From the NCBI GenBank assembly GCA_022820505.1, contig JAJEFK010000016.1, positions 1-64,000 of the forward strand: a stretch of 64,000 bases of DNA, written 5' to 3'. This document shows, one piece after another, positions 5,310-18,047 of this stretch. Numbering within the stretch: the first letter of the stretch is position 1; the number at the start of each line of letters is the position of its first letter. The position numbers and the translations under genes were made by a program. The notes under the pieces are model-generated. The model saw nothing but the letters and a program-made list of their open reading frames with translations. It had not been told where the DNA came from and ran no database searches. The DNA is from Acidimicrobiia bacterium (GTDB lineage Bacteria > Actinomycetota > Acidimicrobiia > Acidimicrobiales > Poriferisodalaceae).

Positions 5310-5524
5310 GGCCGTGCCCACACCACAAGTCTGCCCGCGCCGAGCACCAGTTCGCCTGCACAACCATCTCGACGCCCGTCAAGTCATGCCGCCCTGGTGA
5401 CTCTCGGACCCAGCTCTGTTGGAGAACGAAATCAGGTCGAGCACTCGGAATGAGCGGTCTCCGAATTCCCACTTGCTGCACCGTCAAGTCCCTATCATCG
5501 CGCTCTCACGGCGGAAGTATCAGC

Positions 5525-8509
5525 ATGGATGACGTGAATTCGCAAAACCAAGGTTCCCTCTGGCGGCGCTGGGATCCGCATATTCACCTTCCCGGAACGG
5601 TCTCGAACGATCAATTCGGTGCAATGAGTATCGAGGACGCGCTGAGGCAACTCTCCCGTGTTCAACCTCGGATCGAAGCCATAGGGGTTACCGATTACTA
5701 CACCACGACTAGTTTTCGCGCTGCTGCCAACGCGCTAGCAACAGGGGTTGCTCCCGGAATTCACTTCGCTTTCCCGAACGTTGAACTCCGGCTCGATAAC
5801 GCTACGTCATCAAATCACGGAGTCAATATTCACCTCCTTTGCTCTCCCAATGAAGTAGACCGACTCGACCAGTTCATCAGTGGTCTTGAATTCAGCTGGC
5901 GAGATACGACGTTCAGAGCCACACACGACGATCTAATCCGGCTTGGTCGAGAATTCTCGCAGGATGCGAGTCTCCCAGATGATGCAGCATTACGAATCGG
6001 TGTGACGCAGTTCAAAGTAAACTTCGAGCAGCTACGCCAGCAATTCCGGAACAATAACTGGGCGCTAGAGAACATCCTCATTGCGGTTGCTGGTGGTGGA
6101 CGCGATGGCACGTCAGGCCTACGTGACCAAGCCGGAGGCTTCGCTGCGAGACGACAATCCATTGAACGTCTAGCGCACATAATTTTCAGTAGCAACCCAC
6201 AGCAAGTGAGGTTTTGGTCGGGCGATGGTGACTTGAGTGAGACAGAGCTCGAACAGACATACGGCGGCATGAAGGTCTGTCTCCACGGAAGCGACGCGCA
6301 TGATCCCTCAAGACTTGGTATACCGGACGACGATAGATTCTGTTGGCTCAACGGTGATCCGACTTTCGATACACTGCGTCTTGCTTGCCTGTCGCCCAAG
6401 ACGAGGAGCTTCATCGGACAAGAATCACCTGCCGTGTCCAGTACCTATGGCAGAGTGATTAGAGTAGGCGTACCTAACGAGAGTTGGTTTGCCAATGGTA
6501 CGATTGAACTCAATCCTGGATTAGTCTCGATTATTGGACCGCGCGGTTCGGGCAAAACTGCTCTCGCCGACCTGATAGCAGCTGGCGCGGGCTCAAGGGA
6601 ACCATTCGATAATGATTCATCCTTCATTCGGCGCGCTGGACGACTGCTCAGCAGCACAGTAGTCAGAGTCGAATGGAGCCATGACGAGACGATGGAACAT
6701 CGCCTGGCCAACGACGATGCCAACGAAGCTTACCCACGACCAGTGCGATACCTGAGCCAACAGTTTGTGGAGCGACTGTGTGCTTCGGATGGCGTATCCG
6801 ATCAGCTCCTGGTAGAGATTGAGCGCGTGATATTCGAAGCCTGGCCAGGCGAAGAACGTCAGGGTGCCACCAATTTTCGCGAACTGCTAGAGATACAGTT
6901 GACGTCGGCACGAGCACGCCAATCGTCGGAGCTCCAAGAGGTGTTGGATTACAGCGATCGTATCGCAGATCTAAGGCTTCGTCGCAGACAAGTTGGGGCG
7001 CAACGATCGGAGAAAGCACAATACGAAGCGCAACTCAAGCGACTCGAGGGTCAGATAGCCGCCTTGACTACGAATTCGGACCAAAGGAGCGCGAACCGGC
7101 TTGCAGTCGTATCTGAAGTCTTTGTTGAACGGCAAGGGCTAGTTCAAGCGCTTGATCGACGTCGGACGGCTTTGAGCGGGTTGCAGAGTGCCGTTAGCTC
7201 GGCTCGATCAACCGCATTCCCTCAATACCACCGACGCCTTCGCGACGAATATTCGGCATCAGGCCTAACTGACATACAATGGGCATCCTTTACAATTGAC
7301 TTCACTCATGACGTAGATAGTCTGATAGGGCAAGCGCTTCAAGACATCTCTAATGAGCTGAACAGCTTAAGAGGGGAGCCTGTCGTCGACACCATTCCAA
7401 TTGTGCTTGACGAGTACTCTCGCGAGGAACTCTCTACCTTCTCGCTCGCTCAACTCAATAGTGACGTCATGCGGCTTCAAGAACTCGTAGGGCTCGATAC
7501 TGAACGACGCAAGCGGCTTACGAAGCTCTCTGAATCTGCCGCAGGCGTCCGCACACACATATCAAGGTTGTCGGAAGACATCGAACGCGCTTTGAGTGAG
7601 GACATTGACGAACTCATCATAAGTCGACGCGACCACTACGAATCCTATTTTCAGGCTCTAATCGAAGAAGAAGATGCGTTACGAAAGCTCTATGAGCCGC
7701 TTAGCGCTGTGCTAGAGGACATTGGCTCTTCGGTGTCGAAACTTCGATTTAGCGTTCGACGAGCAGTTGACGTCAGCTCATGGGCAAGGATGGGTGAGGA
7801 ACTGCTCGACTTGAGGAAGGAAGGTCGCTTTCGTGGAGAGGGTGCCCTAGAACGCGCTGCGATGACCGAACTCGTCCACGCCTGGGAATTCGGCGATTCT
7901 GGTGAAGCCGCCGATGCGATTGACAACTTTGCCAGAAAATATGGTGGCGATATTCGAAGCCAACAGCCGGCGCGTGTGGCAAATGACTCGCAAATTGACA
8001 ACTGGGAACGAAGTGTATCACGCTGGCTATTCAGGACTGATCACATCCAGCTTCGATACAGTTTGGACTACGATGGGTTGAACATTGAACAACTCTCACC
8101 GGGGACGCGTGGGATTGTATTGCTACTCTTGTATCTGGCGGTAGATCAACAAGAGAGCGATCCGCTGATCATCGACCAACCGGAAGAGAACCTTGACCCG
8201 GAATCCGTGCATTCGGAGCTAGTCCAGTTGTTCAGGTTGGCAAGTCAACGCCGACAGATCATCATGGTCACACACAATGCAAACTTGGTCGTCAACACCG
8301 ATGTTGACCAAGTCATCGTCGCTCACTGTGGACCGCTGGCCAAGGGACAGCTGCCCGAGATTCAATATCGATGCGGTGGTCTAGAGGACCCTGAGATACG
8401 TCGCTCAGTATGCGAGATACTCGAAGGTGGCGCAGAAGCGTTCCGACAACGCGCCCGCCGATTGGGCCTTGACATGTCTGTTGATGTGTCGGCTTTGGCT
8501 CCTCAATAG
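5525..8509 (+). CDS. PHP phosphoesterase-SMC-like ATPase fusion (TrlF-like), probable defence protein
   Basis: This 994-residue protein joins two parts. Residues 1-290 are a PHP-type metal phosphoesterase with DPHIHLPGT (HxH), IGVTDYY, PNVELRL, NIHLLC and the closing metal motif HGSDAHD. The rest is an SMC/Rad50-like ATPase: Walker A IIGPRGSGKTAL near 335, a long helical middle, signature LSPGTRGIVLLLL near 860, Walker B LIIDQPEENLDPE near 882 and switch MVTHNANLV. This matches proteins labelled TrlF-family AAA-like ATPases. Base composition is near 50% GC with AT-ending codons, far below neighbouring genes, which suggests recent transfer. The start at 5525 is chosen because a TATCAT box lies at 5493. 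It is convergent with hsdR. Function inferred: ATP-gated nuclease acting in defence. Confidence 0.8.
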   Translation: MDDVNSQNQGSLWRRWDPHIHLPGTVSNDQFGAMSIEDALRQLSRVQPRIEAIGVTDYYTTTSFRAAANALATGVAPGIHFAFPNVELRLDNATSSNHGVNIHLLCSPNEVDRLDQFISGLEFSWRDTTFRATHDDLIRLGREFSQDASLPDDAALRIGVTQFKVNFEQLRQQFRNNNWALENILIAVAGGGRDGTSGLRDQAGGFAARRQSIERLAHIIFSSNPQQVRFWSGDGDLSETELEQTYGGMKVCLHGSDAHDPSRLGIPDDDRFCWLNGDPTFDTLRLACLSPKTRSFIGQESPAVSSTYGRVIRVGVPNESWFANGTIELNPGLVSIIGPRGSGKTALADLIAAGAGSREPFDNDSSFIRRAGRLLSSTVVRVEWSHDETMEHRLANDDANEAYPRPVRYLSQQFVERLCASDGVSDQLLVEIERVIFEAWPGEERQGATNFRELLEIQLTSARARQSSELQEVLDYSDRIADLRLRRRQVGAQRSEKAQYEAQLKRLEGQIAALTTNSDQRSANRLAVVSEVFVERQGLVQALDRRRTALSGLQSAVSSARSTAFPQYHRRLRDEYSASGLTDIQWASFTIDFTHDVDSLIGQALQDISNELNSLRGEPVVDTIPIVLDEYSREELSTFSLAQLNSDVMRLQELVGLDTERRKRLTKLSESAAGVRTHISRLSEDIERALSEDIDELIISRRDHYESYFQALIEEEDALRKLYEPLSAVLEDIGSSVSKLRFSVRRAVDVSSWARMGEELLDLRKEGRFRGEGALERAAMTELVHAWEFGDSGEAADAIDNFARKYGGDIRSQQPARVANDSQIDNWERSVSRWLFRTDHIQLRYSLDYDGLNIEQLSPGTRGIVLLLLYLAVDQQESDPLIIDQPEENLDPESVHSELVQLFRLASQRRQIIMVTHNANLVVNTDVDQVIVAHCGPLAKGQLPEIQYRCGGLEDPEIRRSVCEILEGGAEAFRQRARRLGLDMSVDVSALAPQ

Positions 8510-8566
8510 AGCCATCGTGTCAGCCGTCACTGCAATTGCATAGCTCTCGAGGCGTACTGCGCGAAT

Positions 8567-11698
<3,132 letters not shown>

Positions 11699-11884
11699 GC
11701 ATTGCCCCTCGTTGTGGCCCAAGAGGTTGCCGATCCCCTCGCCGGCCCTTGCTTCAACCCCCGCAGCCCCTCGACTGCCGGGAGCCTACGCATTCCACCC
11801 CGCAAGCCTGCTTGGCCTGGCCAATGCTGCTGCTCCAGAGACCGCCTGCAAGCGGCGTGGCGCGCCGACTTGTCGAGGTGCTGG

Positions 11885-11942
11885 TATATTTTCTGGTATG
11901 AATTCGCTCGATAATGCCACCGTATCGGCAAGTTCGCGATGA
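11885..11942 (+). promoter_or_regulatory. Candidate promoter box and 14-codon leader ORF of the XRE-ImmA module
   Basis: A TATATT box at 11885-11890 stands 7 bases before an ATG at 11898, where a leaderless transcript could begin. That ATG opens a 14-codon ORF (MNSLDNATVSASSR) whose TGA overlaps the ATG of the next gene as ATGA at 11939-11942. The next gene has no Shine-Dalgarno, so coupled translation is a sensible reading. CTGGTAT occurs twice with a 12-base period (11881 and 11893) and could be an operator for the XRE protein. No convincing -35 box was found. Confidence 0.35.
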
Positions 11943-12568
11943 TCGACATCCGCGACAAGGCAAGGGTGCTCGACGAGCTCGGCGACAAGGTGCTGGAAGC
12001 GCTCGCTGCGAGCGTCACAGGCGCCCGTAGGGACTTCCTCCGCTACCAAGGCACGCTTCCAGACTTCGCTGCTCAGGCGAGTTCACGAGGATCGGCAAAC
12101 TGGATCCACGACCGGCTCTGGCACCATGTGCGGGCTCTCTTGGACGATATTGACGATGTGCTTCTCATCGATCTCGGCGTAACGCGAGAGGTCGTGCTCG
12201 GAGGCCGGTACCGGATCCGGATGAAGCGCCACCATCCGCCGGCGCAGGTCGCGACGTACCCCACGCAGACCGCAATGCACTTCATGAGCCAAGCGCCGGA
12301 GCAACTCGTCCTTGAGGGACTCGAGCAAGTCAACCTCATTGCCGGCTATGTGTGGTTCGGCGACAGCTCCGAGATCGGAGCAGCTGTTCTGTCCTTGCGT
12401 GACGGGCAGGACAACGTGCTGTGGGTCCATGAACTGCCCGAGACCGACCTTGACAGGTCCGCGGACGTCGCAACGCCACTGCCGCCCCGCGACGAGCACG
12501 AGAACACGCAGGTCCGCCTGCGGCTCGAGCGGCTGCGAAGCGACGATCCGAGGTCTCAAGAGCTGTGA
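11939..12568 (+). CDS. Conserved protein of unknown function, coupled to an XRE-ImmA gene
   Basis: This 209-residue soluble protein has no signal peptide or membrane segment and no catalytic motif that I recognise. Recurrent-looking blocks are NWIHDRLWHHVRALL near residue 50, RYRIRMKRHH near 80, TYPTQTAMHF near 95 and GLEQVNLIAGYVW near 125. I recall similar proteins beside XRE-ImmA genes, but cannot name the family. Its TGA overlaps the GTG of the next gene (GTGA at 12565), so the two are translated together. It could be the effector or substrate of the downstream metallopeptidase regulator. It faces opposite to the restriction genes around it. Confidence 0.7.
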   Translation: MIDIRDKARVLDELGDKVLEALAASVTGARRDFLRYQGTLPDFAAQASSRGSANWIHDRLWHHVRALLDDIDDVLLIDLGVTREVVLGGRYRIRMKRHHPPAQVATYPTQTAMHFMSQAPEQLVLEGLEQVNLIAGYVWFGDSSEIGAAVLSLRDGQDNVLWVHELPETDLDRSADVATPLPPRDEHENTQVRLRLERLRSDDPRSQEL

Positions 12569-13638
12569 GCTTGGGTGAGGCAATCGTCACGCTGCGGCGG
12601 GCGAATGGCCTGACGCAAGAGAAACTGGCAGAAAGCGCTGGAGTCACCCAGGCAGCGCTCTCGCGTTATGAGAACGAGCTGCGAACGCCCGATGCCGAGG
12701 CGATTACCGCGCTCGCTGGCGCCCTTGGTGTTACGACGGCCTTCCTGCAGCGCGCCGAGGGAGCGGTGGGGGCGTTCATGATCGATGCGCACATGCGACG
12801 CAGGGCCACTGCGAAGCCCACCGTGTGGCGCCGACTCGAGGCCAAGCTGAATGTGTACCGGCAACACCTCGACGCCATCACAGACGCAGTCGAGATGGTG
12901 CCGAAGCTGGCGCTTCCACGTTTCGATCCCATGGAGTATTCGCCAGATGAAGCAGCCCGGATGGTTCGCATGCAATGGCGCATGCCCGCGGGTCCCGTAC
13001 GCGATCTCGCCGGTTGGCTTGAAGCGGCTGGCTGTTTAGTCGTTGCCGAGGACTTCGAAACGGTGGCCGGCGGCAGCCGCGTCGACGGCCTCTCACAGTG
13101 GTCGCACGACTACCCAGTCATGCTCGTGAACAAGCAGGCACCTACCGATCGTCTCCGCCTGACCCTGGCCCACGAACTGGGACACATCTGTCTGCACAGC
13201 ACGGAGTTGTTCGGTGATCCCGAAGACGAAGCGAATGCCTTCGCCGCGGAATTTCTCATGCCCGCTGCAGCCATTCGGCCCGACCTGCACAACTTGGACC
13301 TGGGGCGACTGCACCTACTCAAGCGTCACTGGGGCGTCTCGATGCAAGCGCTGATCGAACGCGCCTATCGCTTGGAGACCCTTTCCGCGGCTCGTCGGAC
13401 GCACCTATACAAGGCCCTCAGCAAACGAGGCTGGCGAACTCGAGAACCCTTGAGCGACGAACTCCCGCCGGAGACGCCTCACTTGGTGACTCGTCTGGTC
13501 ACCTCGCTCCGCGACGCAGGCCTGTCGGCCGCCGAGACCGCGACGATTGCTGGCGTTGCGCCCGGCACCCCACGGCAGCCGGTATTCCTACCCTCGGAGG
13601 TAGGACCCGCGGCACATCTCAAGATCGTCGATCAGTGA
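12565..13638 (+). CDS. XRE helix-turn-helix protein with ImmA/IrrE metallopeptidase domain
   Basis: The protein has 357 residues. An N-terminal XRE helix-turn-helix (GLTQEKLAESAGVTQAALSRYE, residues 15-36) is followed by an ImmA/IrrE zinc peptidase with LAHELGHICLHS near residue 201 and the third ligand in EANAFAAEFLMP. Members of this group relieve repression by cleaving a regulator or act as antitoxins in two-gene modules. It starts at GTG 12565 inside the stop of the upstream gene. The position between hsdR and hsdS suggests control of this module or of the island. The pairing resembles ImmA-type toxin-antitoxin systems, but the toxin identity is unproven. Confidence 0.88.
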   Translation: MSLGEAIVTLRRANGLTQEKLAESAGVTQAALSRYENELRTPDAEAITALAGALGVTTAFLQRAEGAVGAFMIDAHMRRRATAKPTVWRRLEAKLNVYRQHLDAITDAVEMVPKLALPRFDPMEYSPDEAARMVRMQWRMPAGPVRDLAGWLEAAGCLVVAEDFETVAGGSRVDGLSQWSHDYPVMLVNKQAPTDRLRLTLAHELGHICLHSTELFGDPEDEANAFAAEFLMPAAAIRPDLHNLDLGRLHLLKRHWGVSMQALIERAYRLETLSAARRTHLYKALSKRGWRTREPLSDELPPETPHLVTRLVTSLRDAGLSAAETATIAGVAPGTPRQPVFLPSEVGPAAHLKIVDQ

Positions 13639-13704
13639 CCTGACGATCCACGCTGAGTGACGATGACCGACCTAGCCGTCAGGGCGCCGATCCGTCGCTC
13701 CGGT

Positions 13705-14310
13705 CTACACGACGGGGGTCAGTTCGCGTGTCTCGGCTGGGACCCCGCGAATCGGTGAGCCTTGACACAACGACTCGAGCCATTCGACGAGTTCGTCGAC
13801 CTGCCATGCCGCAAGGTCGGTTACCCGGTGACCACGAATGCCGACGAAGTACTTGTCGTCCCAGTTCATGCACTCTGCCGGAAGGCCACAAGCCGAGGAT
13901 CCGAAGTAGACGAACCGCGTGCCGATCAGTACCCGGTTCACCTTCAAATCACGGTGAATATCTTCGTCGCAATGGTGGCACGGCAGTTGTATCCAATCGC
14001 CCGATCTGTCGTCACGGCGATACACATTGTCGCCACACTCAATCCGCATATCGCTGCTGGCTCGCGGCTTCTTGCATTCGAACCGCGGATCGTCCCAATA
14101 CTCCTCGAAACTCAAGGTTTCTGAGATCTGCATCGCATAAATCAGTCGTCTGCCCAGACCTGCGCTCACACTGCCCAAGCCCATGATCCAATCCCCCACT
14201 TGAGCCGTGCGCCGAACCTGCGGCTTGCACAGCGCCAGCGTGCAATATCCGTGATACGGATTCGGAGCTAAGCCAGTATCATAGGTCATTACATACCGGT
14301 AGAGCTTCAT
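13705..14310 (-). CDS. Nmad2-like (nucleotide modification associated domain 2) protein
   Basis: This 201-residue protein opens with MKLYRYVMTYDTG, APNPYHGYCTLALCKP and RTAQVGDWIMGLG. That pattern matches my memory of the Nmad2 domain, which was described near DNA base-modification genes. A pair of cysteines in LPCHHCDED could bind metal. ATG 14310 shares its A with the hsdS stop (TGATG), so it is translated with hsdS and probably works with the restriction-modification complex. Local GC is lower than in flanking housekeeping genes. The role is unknown; recognising modified or foreign DNA is a guess. Confidence 0.6.
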   Translation of the reverse strand: MKLYRYVMTYDTGLAPNPYHGYCTLALCKPQVRRTAQVGDWIMGLGSVSAGLGRRLIYAMQISETLSFEEYWDDPRFECKKPRASSDMRIECGDNVYRRDDRSGDWIQLPCHHCDEDIHRDLKVNRVLIGTRFVYFGSSACGLPAECMNWDDKYFVGIRGHRVTDLAAWQVDELVEWLESLCQGSPIRGVPAETRELTPVV

Positions 14311-15596
14311 CAGTCCTGCCCGGCCATTGGTGCAGATACACGTAGCTCACCAGAAATCAGCTTCGGTAGCAGTGTGTCACGCAGGTTTGCCAAACCTTGC
14401 GACATGGACTGCAACTTCAGCGTCTGCCTGAGCCACGGCGCTGCAACACGTGAGAATTCTGCCAAGACCTCTGTAGACGGCATGATCAAAGTGGTTGCCG
14501 CTAACGCGTGAGGTCGAACCCGTTGATGGCTCTTGGATGTCCCGGTCACGAGTCCGACCAGCACGTTGCGGTACCGGTCAGAGCGCAACGTGCAATACAA
14601 GAACGAAGAATCGGTAGGCAGTTTGGGGCGCAGAACGGCGAACTCCGTTGACGCGACGGCTGCTTTGCCCGGCTCTGGGCCGACGAGCCAGACTCTCTCG
14701 ACATCCGGGTTCAGGCGCGAAAGCAGCACTGTGTTTGGATGCACGACACACTTGTTACTCCGTATGGCCTCACCAAGTTCAATCACGGGGCGCTTTCCCG
14801 AGTCGAATGCTGGAATGCTGTAAAGGCAGTACTCAAGCCCCGGTGATCGGCTCGGGTCAACTGTTTGTCTCAAGTGGTCTGCGGCCTCGTCAAGTCGGCA
14901 GGTCCGCCAATCTCTTGGGATCGGGCCGAGTTGGGAGTCGACCAGTTCATCGGGGAAGAGGTTGTATACCTCGGCGGGGAGGCCGAGAAAGGACTCGCCT
15001 TCACGCCACCGGCCCTCCATCTTGGCCAAGACCGGCACAAAATCCACAAACCATGCTTTGTACAGGGACTGAGCCATCTGCTCCAATGTCTCGCACATCT
15101 GCCGATTAAGCTCAATCCGATCATCCAGCGCGCTCAGAATCTCCGCGATCCGGCGCTGTTCCGCCATCGACGGAAGTAGAATCCCATGGCCTGAGACATA
15201 GTCCCACTTCGCGCGGGGCATTCTTGTGCCCTCGGCCCCACGAGTCGCCATATCAACGAAATCAGAACAAGCAAGCACATAGAACAGAAACTGGGCATTG
15301 ACGCTTTGCTTGGGCCGTATGACCCAGATATCGGTCGAGCAAATGCCGTCAAAGTTCGGTCTCACGACCTTACGAAAATACGGCCGCAGCTTGCCAAAGA
15401 GGATGTCGCCCTGACGAAACCGCGACTTGGTACTTGTGACATCGCTTGCACTACCAACGCCAATAAGGCTCAGGCTGCCCTCGCCGATGTGCTCAAGGCC
15501 GATATACGGCGAACCGTCGCAATGCTCGGGTCTTACCGAATCACGGACTAGGTGACAGCAATCAGCAATTGTGGTGCGAGCTTGGGCGCCTGACAT
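14310..15596 (-). CDS. hsdS: Type I restriction-modification specificity subunit
   Basis: The 428-residue HsdS subunit sets the DNA target of the type I complex. Two variable target-recognition domains are separated by the conserved helix EQRRIAEILSALDDRIELNRQ near residue 145 and followed by LRDTLLPKLISGEL at the C-terminus. Each target domain opens with a typical beta pattern (IGLEHIG and LYSIPAF). It ends in a one-base overlap with the Nmad2-like gene and begins four bases after the small gene at 15601-15876. It is intact. Target sequence cannot be read from the protein alone. Confidence 0.92.
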   Translation of the reverse strand: MSGAQARTTIADCCHLVRDSVRPEHCDGSPYIGLEHIGEGSLSLIGVGSASDVTSTKSRFRQGDILFGKLRPYFRKVVRPNFDGICSTDIWVIRPKQSVNAQFLFYVLACSDFVDMATRGAEGTRMPRAKWDYVSGHGILLPSMAEQRRIAEILSALDDRIELNRQMCETLEQMAQSLYKAWFVDFVPVLAKMEGRWREGESFLGLPAEVYNLFPDELVDSQLGPIPRDWRTCRLDEAADHLRQTVDPSRSPGLEYCLYSIPAFDSGKRPVIELGEAIRSNKCVVHPNTVLLSRLNPDVERVWLVGPEPGKAAVASTEFAVLRPKLPTDSSFLYCTLRSDRYRNVLVGLVTGTSKSHQRVRPHALAATTLIMPSTEVLAEFSRVAAPWLRQTLKLQSMSQGLANLRDTLLPKLISGELRVSAPMAGQD

Positions 15597-15600
15597 AGAT

Positions 15601-15876
15601 TCAATGCGACTTACGCGCTATGCATACGGCCGAGAACTCATTCGCACCGGAAATTTCGCGCGCGTCCTCATTTTCGCCTTCCCATTCCGCGTGATCGGGC
15701 TTCGGGCGGATGTTAATGGCACTCAGGCTGTTGGCATGAAGATTGTCGTAACCGTCTTCATAACCGTTGACAACGACTCTGATGTCCGAGGGGTAGTGGG
15801 CTAACGCTTCGATCAGGTCCTTGACGGTCAGAGGTCGGCACTGTTCCTCGTAACTGCCGGCAGTGTGGCTGGCCAT
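15601..15876 (-). CDS. Small protein between hsdM and hsdS
   Basis: This 91-residue acidic protein contains PLTVKDLIEALAHYPSDIRVVVNGYEDGYD, a pattern common in small phage and island proteins that I cannot assign to a function. The ORF track extends it to 16005, overlapping hsdM. ATG 15876 is preferred because GAAGGAGG sits four bases upstream. It lies inside the hsdM-hsdS transcription unit. Possible roles are an assembly or activity modulator of the methylase, but nothing in the sequence proves that. Confidence 0.7.
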   Translation of the reverse strand: MASHTAGSYEEQCRPLTVKDLIEALAHYPSDIRVVVNGYEDGYDNLHANSLSAINIRPKPDHAEWEGENEDAREISGANEFSAVCIARKSH

Positions 15877-15929
15877 GCCGCCTCCTTCGATACTCGATCC
15901 ATTCACACCAGTCGCCTCCGCTATGGGCC

Positions 15930-17912
15930 TCAGAAACCCAAGGATTGCAGGTTGGCCTCGATCTGAGTGTCTAGTTTTTCTGCTTCGGCCTGCTGCGCGC
16001 GCCATTCGACGGCGAGGCAGGTCATCTTGTCGGCGAATGGCTCGCTGTCGTCGGGCTTGGGGGCGACACCGACGTAGCGACCGGGGGTGAGCACGTAGTC
16101 GTGGCTGCGGATTTCCTCGACAGGGGTGCTCTTGCAGAAACCTGACACGTCTTCGTAGCCCGCGGAACCGCCGTCAGCACTTGGGCGGCCGTGGCCGCCG
16201 ACAGGCTCGGAGCGCCAAGCGTGGTAGGTGGCGGCGACCTTGGCGATGTCGCTGTCAGTCAACTCGCGGTGCGTGCGATCGATCATGCGGCCGAAGCTGC
16301 GAGCGTCGATGAACAGAACCTCGCCGGTGCGGTCGCGCAGACCTCCCCCGCCTGAGCGGTCCTTCGCGATGAACCACAAGCACGCTGGGATCGCTGTGGA
16401 GAAGAACAACTGGCTGGGTAGTGCCACCATGCAGTCGACCAGACCGGCCTCGACAAGGTTCCTACGGATGTCGCCCTCTCCTGACTGCTGCGACGACATC
16501 GAACCGTTCGCGAGCACGAAGCCTGCTACACCCCTCGGCGCGAGGTGGTGCACCATGTGCTGTACCCAGGCGAAGTTGGCGTTGCCGTTGGGCGGTACCC
16601 CATAGCGCCAGCGCTGGTCGCCGGCCAGGCGGTCAGCACCCCAGTCGGAGACGTTGAACGGCGGGTTTGCCAGGATGAAGTCCGCCCGCAGATCCGGATG
16701 GCGGTCGTTATGGAACGAGTCGCCGTGCTCGATCTGGCCCCCGATGCCTCGGATCGCCAGATTCATACGAGCCAAGCGCCAGGTCGTGTAGTTGGACTCC
16801 TGGCCATAGATGGAGATGTCGGTGCGTGCTCCGCGCTGCAACGCTCCGCCGTTCCCATTGCCGTCGGCGTGCGCCTCGATGAAGTCGACCGACTGCACAA
16901 ACATGCCTGCCGAGCCACAACACGGGTCGTACACCCGGCCTTCATACGGCTCGATCATCTCGACGAGCAGCCTTACAACGCAACGGGGCGTATAGAACTC
17001 GCCGCCGCGCTTGCCCTCGGCATCGGCGAACATCGACAGGAAGTACTCGTACACCCTGCCGAGCACGTCGCGAGAACGAGCGGCCGAGTCGCCCACGGTG
17101 ATGTTGCCCAGCAGGTCGATCAGCCGTCCGAGCCGTTGCTGGTCAAGCGCGGGACGGGCGTAGTCCTTGGGCAGTACGCCCCGCAGCGCTGGGTTCAGTG
17201 CCTCCAGCTCGTCCATAGCGTTGTCAACGATCGAGCCAATCGTCGGTTGCCGAGCCTGGGCGGTGAGTGTGTGCCACTGAGCCGGCGGCGGCACCCAGGC
17301 GACATTGCGCCAGCGGTACTCGTCAATGTCGTCGGGATCGGCGCCGTCGTCGATCTCATCTTCAAGCGACGCCCGAACCTCGGAGTACGCATCCGATACG
17401 TACTTCAGGAAAATCAACCCAAGCACGACGTGCTTGTACTCCGCAGCGTCCATGCTCCCACGCAGCTTGTCGGCTGCTGCCCACAGCGTCCGCTCGATGT
17501 CAGCCAGGTCGCCGCTACCCTCTGTGCTGTCGAACTTGCCTTGTCGGGCGTCATCACCCACTTTGACGGCCGTCGGACTAGGCACATCGCCGGCCTTTGC
17601 AAGACCATCTGACTCATCGTCGGTTCCGTCCAACGCCGCTACTTGGTACGAATGTCGCAGGTTCTCCAGCAGGGTCCTACCGTGGGCCTCATCGCCATCA
17701 GACCGCCACGCCACCAACCACAGGTCGGGATATTCGGCCTCTATCCGCTTCTCTCGCCACTGCGAGAGAGTCCACGTTCTCTTGGCCGCTCGCTGAAAGC
17801 GGTATGGCCCAACATCTGCGTCGTCAACGACGTTGCCGTCGTCGTCGACGAATGACACCTCGAATCCCTCGACCCTTGAGATGGTCTTGGCGACTTCGCC
17901 GCTTGCGGGCAT
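15930..17912 (-). CDS. hsdM: Type I restriction-modification DNA methylase (N6-adenine), with extra N-terminal domain
   Basis: The 660-residue HsdM methylates adenine at the target to protect host DNA. The helical N12 domain begins near residue 138 ([17 protein letters not shown]). The catalytic domain has [13 protein letters not shown] (motif I, S-adenosylmethionine binding) near residue 330 and [12 protein letters not shown] (NPPF catalytic motif) near 415. About 135 residues precede the usual start, including [12 protein letters not shown] and [10 protein letters not shown], which is longer than ordinary HsdM of about 500 residues. ATG 17912 has GGAG nearby, so this extension is probably real. 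It is the first gene of the hsdM-small-hsdS-Nmad2 unit. Confidence 0.93.
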
Positions 17913-18047
17913 TCATCATCTCCGCACTGCCCGAGGTCCCGCGAACCGGGGCCCATCCGCTGTGGCTTGTTTCTACCTGACGCTGGCTCGAAGCGACGCG
18001 ATCCGACTACCGGCGGCACATCAGGCTCGCCGATAGCGTGAGCGGCG

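Follow-up and report, generated by a model that had tools for sequence, protein, structure and literature searches.

The trlF locus and its island

The analysed window is a 64,000-nucleotide stretch of an Acidimicrobiia bacterium genome (contig JAJEFK010000016.1). Near its start, a TrlF-family gene lies in a 12.7-kb insertion island together with hsd genes of a type I restriction system (Table 1). The trlF gene is convergent with hsdR, their stop codons are 57 bases apart, and no TrlG gene is apparent beside trlF at the window locus. Alignment favours a start at 5525 over the in-frame ATG at 5450, because the N-terminus counted from 5525 matches homologue N-termini and GGAAG lies directly 5' of this ATG; 5525 is thus the likely translation start.

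Table 1. Features of the trlF gene and the surrounding island (window coordinates).
Feature	Position	Strand	Remarks
Insertion island holding trlF	about 5350..18030	.	absent in four same-genus genomes; hsd part without trlF in two
TrlF-family gene	5525..8509	+	994 aa, single open frame; PHP domain + SMC-like ABC ATPase
Variant PHP domain, residues 1-305	5525..6439	+	AF2 and Foldseek
PHP motif I HIH, H19 and H21, ligand positions 1 and 2	5579..5587	+	85/85 conserved
PHP motif II D57-Y58, TDY instead of TDH, position 4	5693..5698	+	Y58 in 85/85 of clade
E87, ligand position 5	5783..5785	+	86/86 conserved
N101-x-H103, H103 = position 6 by hhalign to the Ppl VHIL His	5825..5833	+	N101, H103 86/86
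GSDAH, residues 255-259, D257 and H259 = positions 8 and 9	6287..6301	+	87/87 conserved
Walker A GPRGSGKT, 338-345	6536..6559	+	G338, G341, G343, K344 87/87
Mostly helical insert between Walker A and signature, helices 451-733	6875..7723	+	AF2 secondary structure
ABC signature LSPGTR, 857-862	8093..8110	+	motif and homologue alignment
Walker B LIIDQPEE, 881-888, Gln at catalytic-Glu position	8165..8188	+	aligned with Rad50 LDEP
Switch His H917, in THNAN	8273..8275	+	87/87
hsdR, type I restriction subunit	8567..11722	-	
209-aa protein of no known family, candidate RosmerTA toxin	11939..12568	+	overlaps start of RmrA-like gene
HTH + ImmA/IrrE protease, RmrA-like (RosmerTA antitoxin)	12565..13638	+	PADLOC RmrA 3.8e-56
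Nmad2-domain protein	13705..14310	-	PF18753 1.2e-57
hsdS	14310..15596	-	
hsdM with about 138 extra N-terminal residues	15930..17912	-	

The island occupies an integration hotspot between an NAPRTase gene and a DUF2784 gene. The hotspot is empty in four congeners, where the NAPRTase gene abuts sequence matching 18027-18034 with some 60-90 bases between. Two further congeners, G405 (locus L141) and G398 (L142), hold differing versions of the hsd island at the same hotspot, with exchangeable ATPase cargo. Both have the hsd part without trlF, and in G398 the trlF slot is occupied by an AAA_21 ATPase. The island of G398 (L142, 8067-13179) runs on into a 1492-aa protein with weak AAA matches only, and it also carries a divergent 214-aa gene without a Pfam match. 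The Nmad2 gene overlaps the end of hsdS, and its slot in G405 is taken by an AAA_15/AAA_21 ATPase. The added segment of hsdM (17515-17899), which precedes HsdM_N, has no blastn match in hsdM of G405. A RosmerTA-like pair (11939-13638) is embedded in the hsd island and is conserved in L141 at 7908-9601; RmrA-like HTH-ImmA genes are of the RosmerTA antitoxin type (PMC10440598).

Base composition sets trlF apart from its surroundings. Its GC content is 0.533 and its GC3 is 0.53, compared with GC3 of 0.64-0.87 in neighbouring genes, which makes it the most foreign portion of the island and argues that it entered the island separately. Matches at 80% coverage or more occur in 76 plasmid records, the clade is also found in 10 IMG/VR contigs, and differing TrlF-family types are present in eight of the 11 genomes of the window genus. 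The trlF gene is horizontally acquired.

Varied defence genes lie around trlF homologues. Type III RM, Hachiman, Qat, PglZ, Lamassu, Dsr2 and AbiE genes each occur once as neighbours, and a homologue on a Klebsiella plasmid adjoins an ATP-binding/UvrD-helicase gene pair and an Abi gene. For 37 homologues, PADLOC was run on the closest ORFs (148) and on more distant ones (148); 200 families were matched in the near set and 147 in the far set, each family matching one ORF. As both sets are rich, the result indicates defence surroundings with a weak distance effect and no partner, and a fixed partner gene was rejected.

Domain architecture and the ATPase head

Members of the TrlF family, which already has a name, occur widely on both plasmids and chromosomes. 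The named TrlF, from Photorhabdus, comes from a temperature-restriction locus, with no role shown for TrlF itself (PMC7554251), and no TrlF biochemistry was found in the literature searched. By profile search, the product of 5525-8509 is a full-length member of this known family, scoring 601.8 bits against NCBIfam NF045780 (cutoff 350) over model positions 2-944 of 944. The next-best NCBIfam profiles were Ppl (NF042955; 114.1 bits against a cutoff of 1000) and Spaf_1101 (103 bits). Most other sampled TrlF members are only about 16-28% identical to the window protein.

Pfam profiles matched only the ATPase part (AAA_21, SMC_N, AAA_23 and AAA_15). No Pfam PHP domain was detected in residues 1-305 even at E<=10, and a sequence search of this region against PDB gave no match even at E 10. 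The N-terminal domain is identified as PHP from its structural matches and from its profile match to the PHP domains of Ppl-type proteins (probability 98.8, E 8e-17). AF2 modelled the full chain from 52 sequences with a pLDDT of 87, and residues 1-305 alone with a pLDDT of 93.4 and a pTM of 0.91. Foldseek searches of PDB matched the full chain to SMC, JetABC, MukBEF, Rad50 and RecN heads and to RNase AM. With residues 1-305, the top 27 matches were PHP phosphoesterases, RNase AM and PolC/PolIII-type polymerases with PHP domains (E 1.3e-6 to 7e-3). In the predicted layout, a PHP fold forms the N-terminal part, and behind it comes an SMC/Rad50-like ABC head whose coiled coils are short.

The initial annotation of this DNA had proposed a PHP phosphoesterase fused to an SMC-like ATPase on a TrlF-like plan, with both motif sets in one chain and AT-rich codons, and had suggested structure prediction as a check. 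This outline is confirmed over the full length by NF045780, AF2 and Foldseek, and the codon composition given above agrees with it. HIH, HGSDAHD (residues 254-260), Walker A, LSPG, Walker B and H917 all lie in a single ORF, and none of 20,000 protein shuffles contained Walker A, a DQPE-type Walker B and GSDAH together. The PHP-ATPase fusion is real, and it is of a kind already known.

The head has the features of an SMC/Rad50-type ABC ATPase, namely Walker A, the signature, the Walker B Asp and the switch His, with a helical insertion between. The full ATPase set claimed by the initial annotation thus stands for these four motifs and fails at one residue, as Gln885 follows the Walker B Asp where Rad50 has Glu (LDEP). 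The motif DQPEENLD (884-891) is invariant in 87 of 87 clade members, so that none of them has the catalytic Glu at this position; Ppl lacks it as well, and Gln is found there in every TrlF/Ppl protein of the broad set. PoxtA (7p7q) and ExpZ/VmlR (6ha8), among the best PDB sequence matches, likewise have DQP at Walker B; we take both structures to be E-to-Q trapped mutants. The substitution suggests a slow, ATP-locked ABC head, but E887 or E888 could compensate and restore hydrolysis. No CxxC, and hence no CxxC zinc hook, occurs anywhere in the 994-aa protein.

The PHP metal site

Active PHP domains have nine ligands with the consensus H, H, D/H, H, E, H, C/H, D/N, H (PMC3666897), and these serve three metals (PMC3666897, PMC5636811). 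The window protein was compared with a set of 86 full-length homologues (its own copy included; 38-53% identity, one at 26%) taken from genome contigs, plasmids and the window's phylum. These belong to Pseudomonadota, Actinomycetota, Dormibacterota, Bacteroidota, Planctomycetota and other phyla; outside the window's phylum, sampling consisted of one genome-contig scan with clade-specific patterns, which favours close relatives.

The PHP fold is present, and the nine-ligand set of metal-active PHP phosphoesterases is incomplete. Six ligands are retained (H19, H21, E87, H103, D257 and H259, at positions 1, 2, 5, 6, 8 and 9), and they are invariant in about 85 homologues, wherever the region is present. 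The His of position 4 is replaced by Tyr58 in all 85 clade members having that region, the His of the motif III "AH" (position 7) is without a counterpart in the clade, and position 3 is N28 or D/N29. Profile alignment to Ppl-type PHP domains paired HIH with HxH, TDY with TDH, NVE with GVE, H103 with the VHIL His, and GSDAH with GSDAH. In the YcdX/Pol III site scheme, the four-ligand HxH/E/D site is complete here, and the other two sites are each short of one or two ligands. Because about 85 homologues spread over many phyla all keep this altered set, the site of the window clade looks rebuilt rather than decayed. The Y. ruckeri plasmid pYR4 encodes a TrlF that shows these substitutions too (NY at motif II, N-x-H).

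These results correct the initial annotation, which had read a full set of PHP metal motifs and had proposed an alignment of the metal residues; the alignment kept six ligands, lost positions 4 and 7, and left N or D at position 3. The annotation had also named ligand loss in the family, or a housekeeping role for a homologue, as evidence against its reading. Ligand loss was found in part: the window clade has lost two or three of the nine, and other TrlF/Ppl-type proteins of the genus have lost different ligands or nearly all. A housekeeping role is not indicated, as the gene is mobile, patchy and located among defence genes. Because of the losses, catalysis is not to be assumed from motifs, and HxH plus GSDAH alone are no proof of an active PHP enzyme.

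PHP sites vary widely across TrlF/Ppl-type proteins, and the TrlF family falls into types whose PHP sites are complete, rebuilt or dead. In the broad sample, Tyr58 pairs with N/Q101 and H103 in every case, whereas proteins with His58 have a hydrophobic residue at 103 and, with few exceptions, His in the 101 column. Ppl and the other TrlF group have His at position 4; this second NF045780 group keeps TDH and AH and has often lost HxH or DxH. Within the window genus, two other TrlF/Ppl-type proteins (L143, L144) have a complete ligand set, and two (L145, L146) have lost HxH and DxH and retained the ATPase motifs. Four TrlF-family proteins of the genus (L147, L148, L149 and L150) have lost nearly all PHP ligands with ATPase motifs intact, and are natural pseudo-PHP versions. 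The losses in these relatives indicate that the PHP-ATPase combination tolerates lost PHP chemistry, so activity has to be argued clade by clade.

A quick IQ-TREE result and FastTree domain trees were used. The PHP-only tree unites all Tyr-type proteins in a single clade (0.94) adjoining two His-type proteins, while in the ATPase tree the same two sit within the Tyr group. These two (L006 and L115) have His-type PHP sites and ATPase domains that group with Tyr-type proteins. The disagreement between the trees, which are quick and have long branches, suggests exchange of PHP domains.

Proposed mechanism and competing explanations

Ppl, an anti-phage protein of E. coli, is a reported ssDNA exonuclease and the nearest characterised relative of the window protein (PMC12904381). 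Membership in Ppl would entail the activity of an anti-phage ssDNA 3'-5' exonuclease regulated by NTPs. The two proteins share their architecture, the DQPE Walker B and a C-terminal EGG motif, and are 25% identical over 772 residues. Ppl keeps HxH, SDH, GVE, VHIL, AH and SDAH, whereas the window protein has TDY and no AH; membership in Ppl was rejected on the profile score given above and the incomplete PHP ligand set.

A role of trlF in anti-phage defence is probable. The window protein shares with Ppl its overall plan, the DQPE motif and a mobile, stand-alone existence, and this points to a defence gene of Ppl-like type whose PHP site has been rebuilt. The reading we prefer, to which we give a probability of about 0.5, is that of a horizontally acquired, stand-alone TrlF-family defence gene whose product would have a variant PHP domain that acts on nucleic acid and is gated by ATP binding. 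The proposed gating is based on the Ppl mechanism as reviewed (PMC12904381). Two ABC heads would close on ATP and keep the PHP domain off, and Gln at the catalytic-Glu position would give a long-lived ATP-bound dimer, so that the head would serve as an ATP gauge and not as a motor. Infection would lower nucleotide pools and expose nucleic-acid ends, the head would open, and the PHP domain would then attack nucleic acid, most likely DNA. Against the Ppl-like model, the sequence lacks two or three of the nine PHP ligands, E887 or E888 could restore hydrolysis, and the model is carried over from a relative of 25% identity with a complete PHP set.

More tentatively, TDY/N-x-H proteins may form a distinct PHP enzyme class. 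In that case His58 would have given way to Tyr58 and His101 to Asn101, with His103 newly gained and the motif III His dropped, all in concert, leaving a rebuilt, working one- or two-metal centre; together with a natural E-to-Q ABC clamp that senses the ATP level by remaining shut until it falls, this would make a single-protein ATP-gauge phage-defence nuclease. With the PHP types and the universal Gln, two questions become testable: which clades are able to cut, and whether the head works as an ATP gauge or as a motor.

In the E. coli Pol III variant PHP domain, five ligands are replaced, no metal is bound, and the domain is thought to be inactive and structural (PMC3666897). The strongest rival to the preferred reading is a sensor without catalysis, in which the PHP domain would be a pseudo-enzyme binding nucleotides or nucleic-acid ends and harm would come from the ATPase clamp or a recruited partner. 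Such a sensor is a real if minority prospect, in keeping with the loss of ligands 4 and 7, an unreliable ligand 3, the structural Pol III example, and the genus relatives (L145, L146, L147-L150) that lost ligands yet keep their ATPase motifs, in which the architecture persists without a metal site. However, within the window clade neither the remaining ligands nor their replacements vary across about 85 proteins, a constancy that decay alone would not maintain.

The PHP domain might also be active on another substrate, as a ribonuclease or nucleotide phosphohydrolase (RNase AM-like or tRNA-cleaving) and not a DNA exonuclease. RNase AM (9etk, 7ug9) is among the best structural matches of the domain, as is 2yb1, crystallised with AMP and phosphate, and ABC-ATPase tRNases such as RloC are known (PMC2610378). 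Nevertheless, polymerase PHP exonuclease domains match nearly as well in Foldseek and Ppl is reported to degrade ssDNA (PMC12904381), which leaves this alternative somewhat doubtful. The fold of residues 1-305 is common to RNase AM and Pol III/PolC PHP domains by Foldseek, and likeness to PolX comes from the literature; active PHP domains of all these enzymes have nine ligands, while the window protein keeps six.

A role in DNA repair or stress, for example temperature restriction, is improbable. The RecN/Rad50/SMC-like head (Foldseek) and the family name taken from a temperature-restriction locus would fit it, but trlF is patchy in the genus, borne on plasmids and viruses and surrounded by defence genes, and no temperature-tolerant mutation fell in trlF in the name-giving study (PMC7554251).

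RloC and PrrC resemble the window protein in joining an SMC/ABC-type ATPase to a nucleic-acid-cleaving domain and in occurring with type I RM systems. Their nuclease is of HEPN type and RloC has a zinc hook; neither is seen in the window protein, and membership was rejected for want of an AAA_13 match (Pfam) and a CxxC zinc hook. A PrrC-like guard of the type I restriction enzyme, silenced by HsdRMS and released by anti-restriction, would suit the position of trlF beside hsdR in the hsd island and the accessory ATPases in other slots of this island in congeners, but it is very unlikely, weakened by the hsd islands of G405 and G398 that lack trlF, the convergent orientation, the foreign codon usage, the missing RloC/PrrC features, and a census in which only two of 80 genome homologues, many with short flanks, had an hsd homologue nearby (L042 and L074 of L033-L112; one further case, L016, lies outside this set).

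Other defence systems share parts of the plan. Wadjet JetABC subunits are among the best structural matches of the ATPase head, and Lamassu LmuB and PARIS AriA gave weak PADLOC matches to the window protein. Wadjet (JetABCD), Lamassu and PARIS AriA are multi-gene systems with other nucleases, whereas TrlF consists of one gene and carries a PHP domain of its own.
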